Shown: positions 11,395 through 15,956 of the stretch, one piece after another
How the letters are laid out: every line of letters begins with the position of its first letter
Numbering within the stretch: the stretch's first letter is position 1
Source: Alphaproteobacteria bacterium
GTDB taxonomy: Bacteria > Pseudomonadota > Alphaproteobacteria > ATCC43930 > CGMCC-115725
DNA: 33,684 nucleotides
Assembly: GCA_030041335.1 (NCBI GenBank)
Contig: JASHOB010000167.1
Span: 1 to 33,684 of the forward strand
Reading direction: 5' to 3'
Position numbers and translations under genes: made by a program
Notes under the pieces: generated by a model
What the model was told of the DNA's origin: nothing
The model's database searches: none
What the model saw: the letters and a program-made list of their open reading frames with translations, nothing else

Positions 11395-12219
11395 ATGTCT
11401 TCCCGCCCGCTGATCGGCATTCCCTGCTGCACCGCGATCGCCAGCAATCGCCCGACCCACTGGGTAGCCGAAAAATATGTGGTTGCCGTTCACGACGCGG
11501 CCAACGCCATCCCGATGCTGCTGCCCGCGATCGCCGACCGCTGCAGCGTCGACGACATCGTCTCCCGCATCGATGGGCTGTTCCTCACCGGCAGCCGCTC
11601 CAATATCGAGCCGGCGCGTTATGGCGGCGCTCCCGACCCTGCCGAGCCGGACGAAGACGATCCGCGCGACGTCAAGCGCGACGCCCTCACCTTGCCCCTG
11701 ATCCGCGCCGCGGTACGCGCCGATGTGCCAATCTTGGCGATTTGCCGCGGCTGCCAGGAGCTCAACGTCGCGCTTGGGGGAACGCTCCACTCCAGGGTAC
11801 ACGAGCTTGAGGGGCACATCGATCATCGCTCGCGGCATATTCCGGTCGAAAGCCGTTACCAATACATTGCTCACCCGGTGCGGCTGAGCCCCGACGGCGC
11901 GCTGGCGCGCCTCGCCGGCCAGTCCGAGATGGTCGTGAACTCATTGCATTGGCAGGGTATCGACCGACTCGGCATGGACCTGGCGGTCGAGGCGGTGGCA
12001 CCGGACGGTCTGATCGAGGCGGTCCGACATCGGCGCGCCGATTTTATCTTGGGGATCCAATGGCACCCGGAATACCGGGTGATGGAAAACCCCTTCTCCC
12101 GTGCCCTTTTTGCCACCTGGGGCGAGGCGTGTCGGCGCTACGCCGCCGGCCGGCGAATCCGACTGAGCAACCCGACCAGCACCGCCTTTTCATCAGCGTC
12201 GAGATCGCCCGCGATATGA
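11395..12219 (+). CDS. Gamma-glutamyl-gamma-aminobutyrate hydrolase-like (class I GATase, peptidase C26)
   Basis: This is a stand-alone class I glutamine amidotransferase-like hydrolase of 274 residues. IGIPCC at the start, DGLFLTGSRSNIEPARYGG (oxyanion region), PILAICRGCQELN with nucleophile Cys117, VVNSLHWQGIDRL and GIQWHPEY with His224 and Glu226 form the catalytic set of the PuuD branch, which cleaves gamma-glutamyl-GABA and similar gamma-glutamyl amides in polyamine breakdown. No other puu gene is nearby, so the true substrate is open. AAAGG about 8 nt before ATG 11395 supports the start. The 3' end overlaps the convergent MarR gene by 82 bp. The last ~25 residues are Ser/Arg-rich and probably an extension created by read-through into that overlap. 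Confidence 0.9.
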   Translation: MSSRPLIGIPCCTAIASNRPTHWVAEKYVVAVHDAANAIPMLLPAIADRCSVDDIVSRIDGLFLTGSRSNIEPARYGGAPDPAEPDEDDPRDVKRDALTLPLIRAAVRADVPILAICRGCQELNVALGGTLHSRVHELEGHIDHRSRHIPVESRYQYIAHPVRLSPDGALARLAGQSEMVVNSLHWQGIDRLGMDLAVEAVAPDGLIEAVRHRRADFILGIQWHPEYRVMENPFSRALFATWGEACRRYAAGRRIRLSNPTSTAFSSASRSPAI

Positions 12220-12626
12220 GCTTCGTGCGCACGCACGCGCGCCACCAGCTCATGCAAGAGGTCGCGACCCGCCTCGCTGATATGGAGCGCGTAGGAACGC
12301 CGGTCGCGTGGCGAGTCGGCCCGCTTGACCAGGCCTCTTGTCTCCAGACGGTCGATAATGGCCACCAGGGTCGAGCGGTCGATGATCAGGGTTTGGCCGA
12401 GACCGGTCTGGCTTAAGCCGGGATTGCGCTCGATTACCACCAGCGCCGCAAACTGGGCGGGCGTGAGTTCGCCGGCGCCGACGGTGCGCGCGAAATCCTG
12501 AAAGACCGCGAGCTGTGCCTTGCGCAGATGGTAGCCGATCAGGTCAGGCAATAGGCCGAGATCGATCGGGCGCTCCGGCTCCGTTAACGTGGCGGTTTCG
12601 GTTTTGTCGTTTTTGGCCGGCATCAT
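12138..12626 (-). CDS. MarR family transcriptional regulator
   Basis: The 162-residue protein has the winged-helix MarR layout: an N-terminal dimerisation helix (LGLLPDLIGYHLRKAQLAVFQDFA), then LTPAQFAALVVIERNPGLSQTGLGQTLIIDRSTLVAIIDRLETRGLVKRADSPRDRRSYALHISEAGRDLL (in these blocks, helix-turn-helix and wing with the conserved DxRRS-type DRRSY motif), and a C-terminal helix. Such proteins bind short palindromes and are released by phenolic ligands. The gene is transcribed away from gentisate dioxygenase, 573 bp distant, which fits control of that aromatic-degradation gene, but this is inference. Its 3' end overlaps the convergent amidotransferase gene. No good Shine-Dalgarno is seen before ATG 12626 or the adjacent ATG 12623. 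Confidence 0.92.
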   Translation of the reverse strand: MMPAKNDKTETATLTEPERPIDLGLLPDLIGYHLRKAQLAVFQDFARTVGAGELTPAQFAALVVIERNPGLSQTGLGQTLIIDRSTLVAIIDRLETRGLVKRADSPRDRRSYALHISEAGRDLLHELVARVRAHEAHIAGDLDADEKAVLVGLLSRIRRPAA

Positions 12627-13198: not shown

Positions 13199-14245
13199 AT
13201 GGAAGGCTCTGTCCCAACCCACACCACAGAGCGCGAAGCATTCTACCGCGAAATAGCGCCGGGCAATCTGGCGCCGCTCTGGGAGGTGCTCCACAGTCTG
13301 GTCACGCCGGAGCCGGTGACCCCGGTGCAGCCGGTCATGTGGAAGTATCAGGACGTGCGGCCTTTCATCGAGCGGGCAGGCAGGCTGATCACCGCCGCCG
13401 AGGCGGAGCGCCGCGTGTTGGTGCTCGAGAATCCCGGCCTCAAGGGTCGATCCTCCATCACCCATTCCCTCTTTGCCGGCATGCAGCTGATTCTGCCGGG
13501 CGAAATCGCGCGGGCCCATCGCCATGCCGCCTCGGCGCTGCGTTTCATCCTCGAAGGCAAGGGCGCTTATACCGCGGTCGACGGCGAGCGCACCTATATG
13601 AATCCCGGCGACTTCATCATCACGCCCTCGTGGACGTTCCACGATCACGGCAACACCACCGCGACCCCGATGGTTTGGCTCGACGGGCTCGACGTGCCGC
13701 TGGTCAATCTGCTCGACACCAGCTTTCAGGAACGCACCGCGGCGGAGAGCCAGGAAGAGACGCGCCATCCCGGCGATTCGATGGCGCGCTTCGGAGCCGG
13801 GCTGATGCCGGTCGACTGGAAGCCGAAGACCCGCACCTCGCCGGTCTTTACCTACCCCTATGAGCATACCCGCGCGGCGCTCGACACGATGAAGCGCGAG
13901 CAGGACTGGGACGCCTGCCACGGCCTCAAGCTCAAATTCATCAACCCGGCTACCGGCGAGCACGCCATGCCGACCATCGGCACCTTCATGCAGCTGCTGC
14001 CCAAGGAGTTTTCGACGGCGCCTTATCGCTCGACCGACAGCACCGTCTATGTCTGCGTCGAAGGCCGCGGCCTGACACATGTCGGTGATCAGTTCTTCAC
14101 TTGGGGTCCGCGCGATATTTTCGTCGTCCCCAGCTGGTATCGGCATTTCCATCACGCCGACGAGGAATCGGTGCTGTTCAGCTTTTCCGACCGCCCGGTG
14201 CAAGAAAAGCTCGATCTCTGGCGCGAGGACCGCGGTAACCACTAA
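13199..14245 (+). CDS. gtdA: Gentisate 1,2-dioxygenase
   Basis: The enzyme opens the ring of gentisate (2,5-dihydroxybenzoate) to maleylpyruvate using Fe(II) and O2. The 348-residue protein is a bicupin: the first cupin contains GEIARAHRHAASALRFILEG with His107 and His109 as iron ligands, then GDFIITPSWTFHDHGN carrying the third His. The second cupin (STVYVCVEGRGLTHVGDQFFTWGPRDIFVVPSWYRHFHHAD) is also conserved. AFYREIAPGNLAPLWEVLH at the N-terminus is characteristic. A strong AGGAGG ribosome-binding site precedes ATG 13199. Maleylpyruvate isomerase and fumarylpyruvate hydrolase genes, usually adjacent, are missing here. A relative acting on salicylate or 1-hydroxy-2-naphthoate is possible. 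Confidence 0.92.
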   Translation: MEGSVPTHTTEREAFYREIAPGNLAPLWEVLHSLVTPEPVTPVQPVMWKYQDVRPFIERAGRLITAAEAERRVLVLENPGLKGRSSITHSLFAGMQLILPGEIARAHRHAASALRFILEGKGAYTAVDGERTYMNPGDFIITPSWTFHDHGNTTATPMVWLDGLDVPLVNLLDTSFQERTAAESQEETRHPGDSMARFGAGLMPVDWKPKTRTSPVFTYPYEHTRAALDTMKREQDWDACHGLKLKFINPATGEHAMPTIGTFMQLLPKEFSTAPYRSTDSTVYVCVEGRGLTHVGDQFFTWGPRDIFVVPSWYRHFHHADEESVLFSFSDRPVQEKLDLWREDRGNH

Positions 14246-14370: not shown

Positions 14371-15063
14371 TTAAAGGCTGGTGCCTGGCCGCGCGCCTTC
14401 GGGCGCGATCGGCGGTTTGGTTTGCGGGCGTTGCAGGCCGGCAACGACCATGCCCAGCAGCCGCTCGATGATACCGTCGAGGGAGAGGTGGGCCGGTGGC
14501 ACCTTGTCGATCACCAGCATGGTCAAGCCATGGGCGGCGGACCAGGCCGATAGCGCAGTCAGGGCGACCTCCTCTGGATTCCCGGGCGCAACGGCGAAAA
14601 CGCCGGAACGGGCTCCGCGCAAGATGACTTCCTCCAGCACCGCTCTGGCCTCGGCACCAGCCGCCTTGGCGATCGTCGGGCGAGCAGCGGACCCGGCAGC
14701 GGACAGCGCCGGACCGAACATCAGACGGTAGAGCGCGGGATTTTCGAGGCCGAGACGGACGTAAGTTCGGCAGATCGCGACAAGGAGCGCGTCGGCATCG
14801 TCGATGCCAACCATGGCGCGCCGCATGCCGTCACGCAGCCTTTCGAAGCCGACGGCGGCGGCGGCCGCAAGCAGGTCGAGCTTCCCGGGAAAATGGTTAT
14901 AGGGCGCGTGGTGGCTGACGCCGGCACGGCGCGCCACCTCGCGCAGCGAGAACGCCCAGTCCTGCTCCTCGGTCACCAGGTCGAGCGCGGTCTCGATGAG
15001 CGCGCGGCGCAGGTCGCCGTGGTGATAGGGCTGAGGTTTGGTGGCGTGATTTTTTTTTGGCAC
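14371..15063 (-). CDS. TetR/AcrR family transcriptional regulator
   Basis: The protein begins PKKNHATKPQPYHHGDLRRALIETALDLV, the usual lead into the TetR helix-turn-helix, followed by FSLREVARRAGVSHHAPYNHFPGKLDLLAAAAAVGFERL. The C-terminal part (TYVRLGLENPALYRLMFGPALS) matches the WHG-type ligand-binding domain. I place the start at GTG 15063, with GGAAG about 6 nt upstream; the longer reading from ATG 15096 would begin inside the palindromic operator and upstream of the predicted transcription start. The product is about 230 residues. It is divergent from the class II aldolase and most likely controls both genes through the 42-bp palindrome at 15078-15119. Ligand unknown. Confidence 0.92.
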   Translation of the reverse strand: MPKKNHATKPQPYHHGDLRRALIETALDLVTEEQDWAFSLREVARRAGVSHHAPYNHFPGKLDLLAAAAAVGFERLRDGMRRAMVGIDDADALLVAICRTYVRLGLENPALYRLMFGPALSAAGSAARPTIAKAAGAEARAVLEEVILRGARSGVFAVAPGNPEEVALTALSAWSAAHGLTMLVIDKVPPAHLSLDGIIERLLGMVVAGLQRPQTKPPIAPEGARPGTSL

Positions 15064-15077
15064 GGCGGCTTCCAAAA

Positions 15078-15119
15078 ATGTTGACAATGGGTACATGATG
15101 ATGTATCCATTGTCAACAT
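15078..15119. promoter_or_regulatory. 42-bp near-perfect palindrome with divergent promoters (TetR operator)
   Basis: The arms 15078-15090 and 15107-15119 are perfect 13-bp inverted repeats (ATGTTGACAATGG and complement); over the full 21-bp half-sites 19 positions match. Each arm carries TTGACA as a -35 element. On the plus strand TTGACA (15081-15086) is followed after 17 bp by TATCCA (15104-15109), aimed at the aldolase gene. On the minus strand TTGACA (15116-15111) is followed after 17 bp by TACCCA (15093-15088), aimed at the tetR gene. Both promoters overlap face to face, so one bound dimer or pair of dimers would silence both. Confidence 0.8.
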
Positions 15120-15185
15120 AACCGGCGGGATGTCAATCCGCGGCGTCACGGCGAGTCTGGATCACTAACCGAGCGAGGTGCAGCG

Positions 15186-15956
15186 ATGACACCGCAGCAA
15201 TCGTCGACCACCGTTCGCGACCGGGTCTCGGCGCAAGAATGGCAAGCGCGCGTCGCGCTCGCGGCCGCCTATCGGTTGGTCGCCCACTTTCACTGGGATG
15301 ATCTCATTTTCACGCACCTCTCCGCGCGGGTTCCGGGCGGCGATGACCACTTCCTCATCAACCCCTATGGCATGACCTTCGACGAGATCACCGCGTCCAA
15401 CTTGGTCAAGGTCGACCTCGACGGCAACAAGGTCATGGCGTCGCCGCATGAGATCAATCCCGCCGGCTTTACCATTCACAGCGCCATCCATGCCGCCCGC
15501 GAGGATGCAAAATGCGTGCTCCATGTTCACAGCGTAAATGGCGTCGCGGTGTCGGCGCAGAAGCACGGCGTGTTGCCGATCTCGCAGCAATCGATCTTCG
15601 TGCTGTCTTCGCTCGCATACCACGACTATGAAGGCGTGGCCTTGCGCGACGATGAGAAGCCGCGCCTGGTGCGCGACCTTGGCGACAAAAATTTCTTCAT
15701 GCTGCGCAACCATGGCCTGATCACCGTCGCCGACAACGTGCCCGATGCCTTCCTGTTCATGTACATATTCGAGGCCGCGTGCCTCATTCAGGTGCGCGCG
15801 CAGGCCGGTGGCGGACCGCTCATCCCCATCGATCCCGGCATTATTGCAACCGCGCAGCAACAGGCGACGGCGGTGACGAACGCGGCGAGCGGGGCACTGG
15901 CCTGGCCGGCACTGCTGCGGCGACTCGATCGGATCGACCCCTCCTACCGCAACTGA
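15186..15956 (+). CDS. Class II aldolase/adducin family protein
   Basis: This 256-residue cytoplasmic protein belongs to the zinc-dependent class II aldolase/adducin fold, which cleaves or decarboxylates small phosphorylated sugars and similar compounds; the exact substrate cannot be read from sequence. Zinc-binding residues are visible as CVLHVHSVNG (His113, His115) and FFMLRNHGLITV (His176). FTHLSARVPGGDDHFLINPYGMTFDEITASNLVKVDLDGN is the family's N-terminal signature, with the usual catalytic acid region in HEINPAGFTIHSAIHAARED. GAGG lies a few bases ahead of ATG 15186. It stands alone, divergent from the TetR gene, and is probably derepressed by that regulator's ligand. Confidence 0.92.
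   Translation: MTPQQSSTTVRDRVSAQEWQARVALAAAYRLVAHFHWDDLIFTHLSARVPGGDDHFLINPYGMTFDEITASNLVKVDLDGNKVMASPHEINPAGFTIHSAIHAAREDAKCVLHVHSVNGVAVSAQKHGVLPISQQSIFVLSSLAYHDYEGVALRDDEKPRLVRDLGDKNFFMLRNHGLITVADNVPDAFLFMYIFEAACLIQVRAQAGGGPLIPIDPGIIATAQQQATAVTNAASGALAWPALLRRLDRIDPSYRN

Follow-up and report, generated by a model that had tools for sequence, protein, structure and literature searches.

The window analysed here, a stretch of 33,684 nt from an Alphaproteobacteria bacterium (GCA_030041335.1, contig JASHOB010000167.1), carries a tetR gene and a divergently oriented gene of the class II aldolase/adducin family, which are separated by an intergenic region of 122 bp extending from GTG 15063 (tetR) to ATG 15186 (aldolase) and containing a 42-bp composite palindrome (Table 1). 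The tetR product belongs to the TetR family, as indicated by matches to PF00440 (TetR_N; 32.0 bits versus a cut-off of 24, covering residues 48-79 only) and to PF13305 (45.7 bits versus a cut-off of 26.8). On its other side, tetR adjoins, in convergent orientation, a gentisate 1,2-dioxygenase gene (13199-14245, plus strand; TIGR02272 above cut-off). A MarR-type gene is located further away at 12138-12626 (minus strand), and a transposase-like ORF, of IS110 type by eye, lies at the contig end (17-1264, minus strand).

The same divergent aldolase-tetR arrangement is present in two further genomes, at loci L070 and L071 (2 of 80 loci, these being the best 80 of at least 573 homologous loci, with flanks of 3 kb, some shorter). 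L070 is the same contig as locus L007 of the same-genus genome G001, and the L070 record is labelled as a Rhodospirillales MAG. Both orthologues inform the position of the tetR start codon. The ORF list extends tetR to an ATG at 15096, within the palindrome; GTG 15063 of the window is aligned with an ATG in the L007/L070 orthologue, where an in-frame TGA starts 9 nt upstream of that ATG, and with a GTG, preceded by GGAG, in L071. On this alignment tetR probably starts at GTG 15063, and the long form, which had already been doubted in an earlier reading of the sequence alone (hereafter the sequence-only reading), is unlikely.

Table 1. Genes, operator boxes and promoter elements at the tetR/aldolase locus; positions refer to the window unless another locus is named.
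Feature	Position	Strand	Details
tetR	14371-15063	-	TetR_N, TetR_C_33; probable start GTG 15063, GGAAG at 15073-15069
Class II aldolase/adducin family gene, PRK07044 type	15186-15956	+	ATG 15186, GAGGTG at 15175-15180
42-bp composite palindrome	15078-15119	.	two boxes in mirror order, 4-bp gap
TetR operator box 1 (putative), nearer tetR	15078-15096	.	ATGTTGACAATGGGTACAT; held-out score 18.6 bits
TetR operator box 2 (putative), nearer aldolase	15101-15119	.	ATGTTGACAATGGATACAT on the minus strand; held-out score 22.5 bits
tetR -35 (probable)	15131-15136	-	TTGACA; consensus scan, 10/12 together with GACAAT; outside the palindrome
tetR -10 (probable)	15109-15114	-	GACAAT; 4/6, 16 bp on from the -35, inside box 2
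Aldolase promoter (weak candidate)	15081-15109	+	TTGACA-N17-TATCCA; -10 3/6
Boxes at the paralogous tetR, near-perfect	L036 3757-3775 and 3783-3801 (contig C157 20256-20300)		

The palindrome reads ATGTTGACAATGGGTACATGATGATGTATCCATTGTCAACAT. Of its 21 half positions 19 are complementary, with mismatches at positions 14 and 20, and the outer 13-bp arms are perfect. No other 42-mer in the window reaches at least 19/21, and 200 random copies drawn from a first-order Markov model of the window gave 17/21 at best; both the recount and the Markov controls therefore bear out the 42-bp palindrome, with its 13-bp arms and its 19 matches, described in the sequence-only reading. A search of the own genome with a 201-bp query (E <= 0.001) returned the palindrome locus as the single place, for which reason a repeat element was rejected. 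The half-site, with up to three mismatches, has one further copy in the own genome, located within an unrelated coding sequence (selA-like by translation). The inner 30 bp of the palindrome were encountered in 1 of 385 genomes drawn from the class, namely the own genome; the same-genus genome G001, which is outside this draw, carries them as well.

To place the palindrome in its family context, we made use of a de novo motif search, with no motif supplied, in the DNA upstream of 82 tetR homologues, comprising the best 80 of at least 573 homologous loci, the window and a paralogous tetR of the own genome (L036). The motif obtained is a symmetric 19-mer, ATGTTGACA-N-TGTCAACAT, of 19.4 bits (log-likelihood 2411), compared with 6.6 bits in shuffled upstream DNA (log-likelihood 55) and 12.0 bits, in the form of a GC-rich pattern, in DNA inside genes (log-likelihood 1576). 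The operator tetO is 19 bp long with an unpaired centre. As the 82 loci of the initial box scoring had also served to train the first motif model, boxes were scored again in a run held out by cluster, itself seeded with a weak version of the consensus derived from all loci. Under these conditions, at least one box was detected in 82/82 loci, at least two in 80/82 (the loci lacking a pair being L101 and L148) and at least three in 52, and all members of 36 of the 38 clusters had two or more; in 2367 control windows taken from these loci, the share with at least one box was 2.0%. The box threshold of 8 bits and the clustering limits, which gave 60 clusters in the motif search and 38 in the held-out run, were our choice.

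Taking one member per cluster, the centres of paired boxes are 18-19, 23-27, 29, 31-33, 36-42, 44-45, 54 or 60 bp apart, 27 bp being the commonest spacing. In loci L078-L105 a third box was observed 30-33 bp beyond a 27-bp-spaced pair in 23/28 loci, and 13/28 have, within the pair, TTGACA or TTGACG followed after 16 bp by TAAAGT or TAGAGT towards tetR. A box was detected in 11 of 29 more distant TetR homologues that had not been used for training, and a pair in 6, suggesting that the motif is a trait of the subfamily and not of relatives in general; in the 15 distant homologues starting with GYHHGNLRE or AYHHGNLRE, boxes were confined to 2 members, with one weak box each. Within the own genome, a search allowing up to three mismatches gave five boxes: the pair at the paralogous tetR, the pair in the window and a single one within a coding sequence (a LivH-like permease by translation), and the TetR regulator of the window hence seems to be local. 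A wider regulon in the own genome was rejected, since the other half-site and box matches fall within coding sequences.

The window palindrome resolves into two such boxes, the centres of which are 23 bp apart. Box 1 is a pseudo-palindromic version of the family box with its good half facing outward and three mismatches in its inner half, and the inner half of box 2 is likewise poor, again with three mismatches. Both boxes are kept in the orthologous pairs, with centre distances of 23, 23 and 24 bp in the window, L070 and L071, respectively, and held-out scores of 17.1 and 18.6 bits in L070 and of 14.8 and 14.3 bits in L071. Of the palindrome itself, which the sequence-only reading proposed to look for between tetR and class II aldolase genes of related genomes, L007/L070 has a diverged form; in L071 the two boxes are recognisable and the long palindrome is much degraded. 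Upstream of tetR in L071, on the aldolase side of the boxes, TTGACAT is repeated four times in 16-bp steps (2861-2914), as possible repeated -35 elements or half-operators.

These boxes also offer an explanation for the TTGACA contained in both arms of the palindrome. Because a box precedes 82/82 tetR homologues, at least two precede 80 of them, and the spacings range from 18 to 60 bp, the arm TTGACA can be explained as an operator half-site. Across the family, the better half of a box points outward in 53/72 boxes, with 3 ties (held-out scores), and judged from these scores the long palindrome of the window is the outcome of two close boxes with their better halves outward.

The same symmetry could nevertheless mean that the long palindrome is recognised as a whole, either by one TetR dimer or by two overlapping dimers in the manner of QacR. 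The composite is symmetric, the outer halves tend to score above the inner ones, and binding of two dimers is known in the family (PMC6018408, PMC5895659); moreover, the three mismatches in the inner half of each window box leave some room for a single unit or for a shifted frame of recognition. However, the centre spacing of 18-60 bp across homologues is hardly tolerable for one recognition unit, so the long palindrome does not appear to be the general one, and the motif search returned a 19-mer that is symmetric and complete in itself. With regard to overlapping dimers, the two 19-bp boxes of the window are separate, at a centre distance of 23 bp, if the footprint is taken to be the 19 bp of the motif. 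Recognition as a single unit is accordingly judged to be improbable.

A palindrome of this kind might also act at the RNA level, as a terminator or attenuator hairpin in the transcript of either gene or of both. A hairpin of 19 pairs is predicted for the plus strand (-28.8 kcal/mol, z -6.3) and the minus strand is similarly stable (-26.8 kcal/mol, z -6.0), with four T after the stem; L070 reaches a z of -4.1. Against this, the scan passed no terminator-like site in the window, the box spacing in the family varies between 18 and 60 bp, and the pairing in L071 is weakened to shuffle-level stability (z +0.3 and -0.2) with both boxes still recognisable. Since L071 keeps the boxes but not the stable pairing, a DNA operator is favoured over an RNA structure, and a hairpin function appears highly improbable.

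Taken together, these results argue with good confidence that the palindrome is an autoregulatory TetR double operator of the tetO1/tetO2 kind, composed of two 19-bp boxes. The intergenic region is shorter than 200 bp (122 bp), the genes form a divergent pair and two palindromic boxes are common to the homologues. In Streptomyces, 5/5 tested TetR-family regulators located less than 200 bp from a divergent neighbour repressed that neighbour, and several footprinted members of the family have two or three operators (PMC3511530). Such a double operator is ordinary in kind, a self-regulating switch. The segment is very probably a regulatory palindrome of the tetR/aldolase pair, usable by one regulator to shut both genes, and the proposal of the sequence-only reading that a single regulator could do so is supported at this strength.

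The sequence-only reading had, in addition, interpreted the arms as two mirrored promoters: face-to-face, fully overlapping sigma-70 promoters in which each arm provides the -35, the -10 lies in the opposite arm and TetR covers both. The letters are as it described them, with TTGACA in both arms and, 17 bp further on, TATCCA on the plus strand and TACCCA on the minus strand; their identity as -10 elements was not supported. Matching TATAAT at 3/6 and 2/6 positions, respectively, both hexamers are devoid of its last T, and, given the base composition of the locus, over three spacings matches of at least 3/6 arise by chance in 35% and of at least 2/6 in 77% of cases. When a -10 of at least 4/6, with A2 and T6, was demanded at 16-18 bp from the arm TTGACA, 0/2 directions passed in the window and 0/4 in L070 and L071, and the arms of L070 read TAGACA and TTTACA.

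A better candidate promoter for tetR is located partly outside the palindrome. The consensus scan identified a probable -35/-10 pair (Table 1) from which transcription of tetR would start near 15102, close to the middle of the palindrome and hence under the repressor; random sequence of the local composition yields a -10 of 4/6 or better, over three spacings, in 8% of cases. When the window, L070 and L071 are aligned, all three have the TTGACA of this candidate in the same place; the hexamers following at 17 bp in the orthologues, GACAGT (L070) and GACACT (L071), match at 3/6 positions each, and in neither orthologue did a promoter pass the limits of the per-locus promoter listing. For the aldolase gene, no plus-strand promoter in the window passed the consensus scan, and for this reason TATCCA, paired with the TTGACA of the arm, is still the best, albeit weak, candidate in that direction.

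The reading of the arms as mirrored promoters does draw some strength from this last point, and from the subfamily at large, where the layout seems to be realised at the paralogous tetR of the own genome (54% identical to the tetR of the window). There, TTGACA-N16-TATATT can be read in both directions (11/12): each -35 occupies the outer half of a box, its -10 lies at the inner end of the partner box, and 2/2 directions pass the arm-promoter test. In box pairs 22-28 bp apart, a -10-like hexamer at 16-18 bp from the arm was found in 9.6/38 cluster-weighted directions, compared with 2.4 expected from shuffles. The paralogue is alone among the listed close pairs in having an arm promoter in both directions, and the window, L070 and L071 contribute 0/6 directions to this count. 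Owing to the excess over expectation and to the clean paralogue case, operator halves doubling as -35 elements are, by this count, a recurrent trait of the group, one for which the window itself fails the test. The mirrored architecture is accordingly encountered at the paralogous tetR and in part of the family; in the window, 0/2 directions pass the test, the arm TTGACA is accounted for as a half-site and the better candidate for the tetR promoter lies partly outside the palindrome. For the window, we therefore consider mirrored sigma-70 promoters rather unlikely.

A broader version of this idea would combine both functions. The TTGACA half-site would also be a -35 with its -10 in the other box, so that pairs spaced 23-27 bp apart would give fully overlapping promoters, one for the regulator and one for the target, that exclude each other; the paralogue would be the clean case and the window a weaker version, and competition between polymerases would set the ratio of regulator to enzyme. 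We regard this as an unlikely extension.

Returning to the double operator, we propose a model in which TetR dimers would bind both boxes and cover about 42 bp of the 122-bp region. Bound TetR would block the tetR promoter, with its predicted start near the palindrome middle, and would also block an aldolase promoter situated in or just after the boxes. A small ligand, perhaps the substrate or product of the aldolase-like enzyme, may then release TetR.

This arrangement resembles known systems to different degrees. A precedent for mirrored overlapping promoters is E. coli bioO, an imperfect palindrome of about 40 bp between bioA and bioB under overlapping face-to-face promoters, although its regulator is BirA and not a TetR protein. 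With Tn10 tetR/tetA, the window has in common a divergent gene pair and, between the two genes, two separate palindromic operators, putative in the window; in Tn10 the repressor controls both genes, and the operators tetO1 and tetO2 are given as 15-bp palindromes (PMC3511530). In contrast to Tn10, the box sequence of the window is different, the boxes are mirrored and so close that they form one long palindrome, and the target is an aldolase-like enzyme and not an efflux pump. The likeness to QacR-type systems would lie in the occupation of a long palindrome by two dimers of the TetR family (PMC6018408), and two dimers on one DNA target have been described for QacR and others (PMC6018408, PMC5895659); QacR dimers, however, occupy overlapping sites, whereas a gap of 4 bp separates the adjacent boxes of the window, and the spacing varies in relatives.

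The divergent neighbours of box-bearing tetR homologues provide a further indication of possible targets. One divergent ORF was profiled in each of 8 loci. Members of the aldehyde dehydrogenase family were found in L106 and L114 (adjacent) and in L072 (about 0.8 kb away), a tautomerase in L073, a monooxygenase-like protein in L077 and an aldolase in L071; the ORFs of L036 and L094 had no Pfam match, and by eye that of L036 looks similar to the L073 tautomerase. The NCBIfam model that best fits the three aldehyde dehydrogenases is benzaldehyde dehydrogenase, below cut-off. CalR in Shewanella is reported, as a comparative prediction, to control a coniferyl aldehyde dehydrogenase (PMC3223726), and the CalR-calB pair is similar to L106 and L114, in which a box-bearing tetR homologue adjoins a divergent aldehyde dehydrogenase family gene. 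An identity of CalR with the TetR group studied here is a lead only, the passage concerned in PMC3223726 giving neither the family nor the motif of CalR.

Overall, these findings suggest how a palindrome may come to resemble two mirrored promoters, namely through operator half-sites that resemble a -35 element, and they designate the paralogous tetR locus as a better place than the window for testing competition between overlapping promoters. As a binding motif open to testing, the box could allow the target genes, and perhaps the ligands, of uncharacterised regulators to be predicted in this TetR subfamily, whose members, mainly from alphaproteobacteria, are encoded beside genes for aldolases, aldehyde dehydrogenases and tautomerases.
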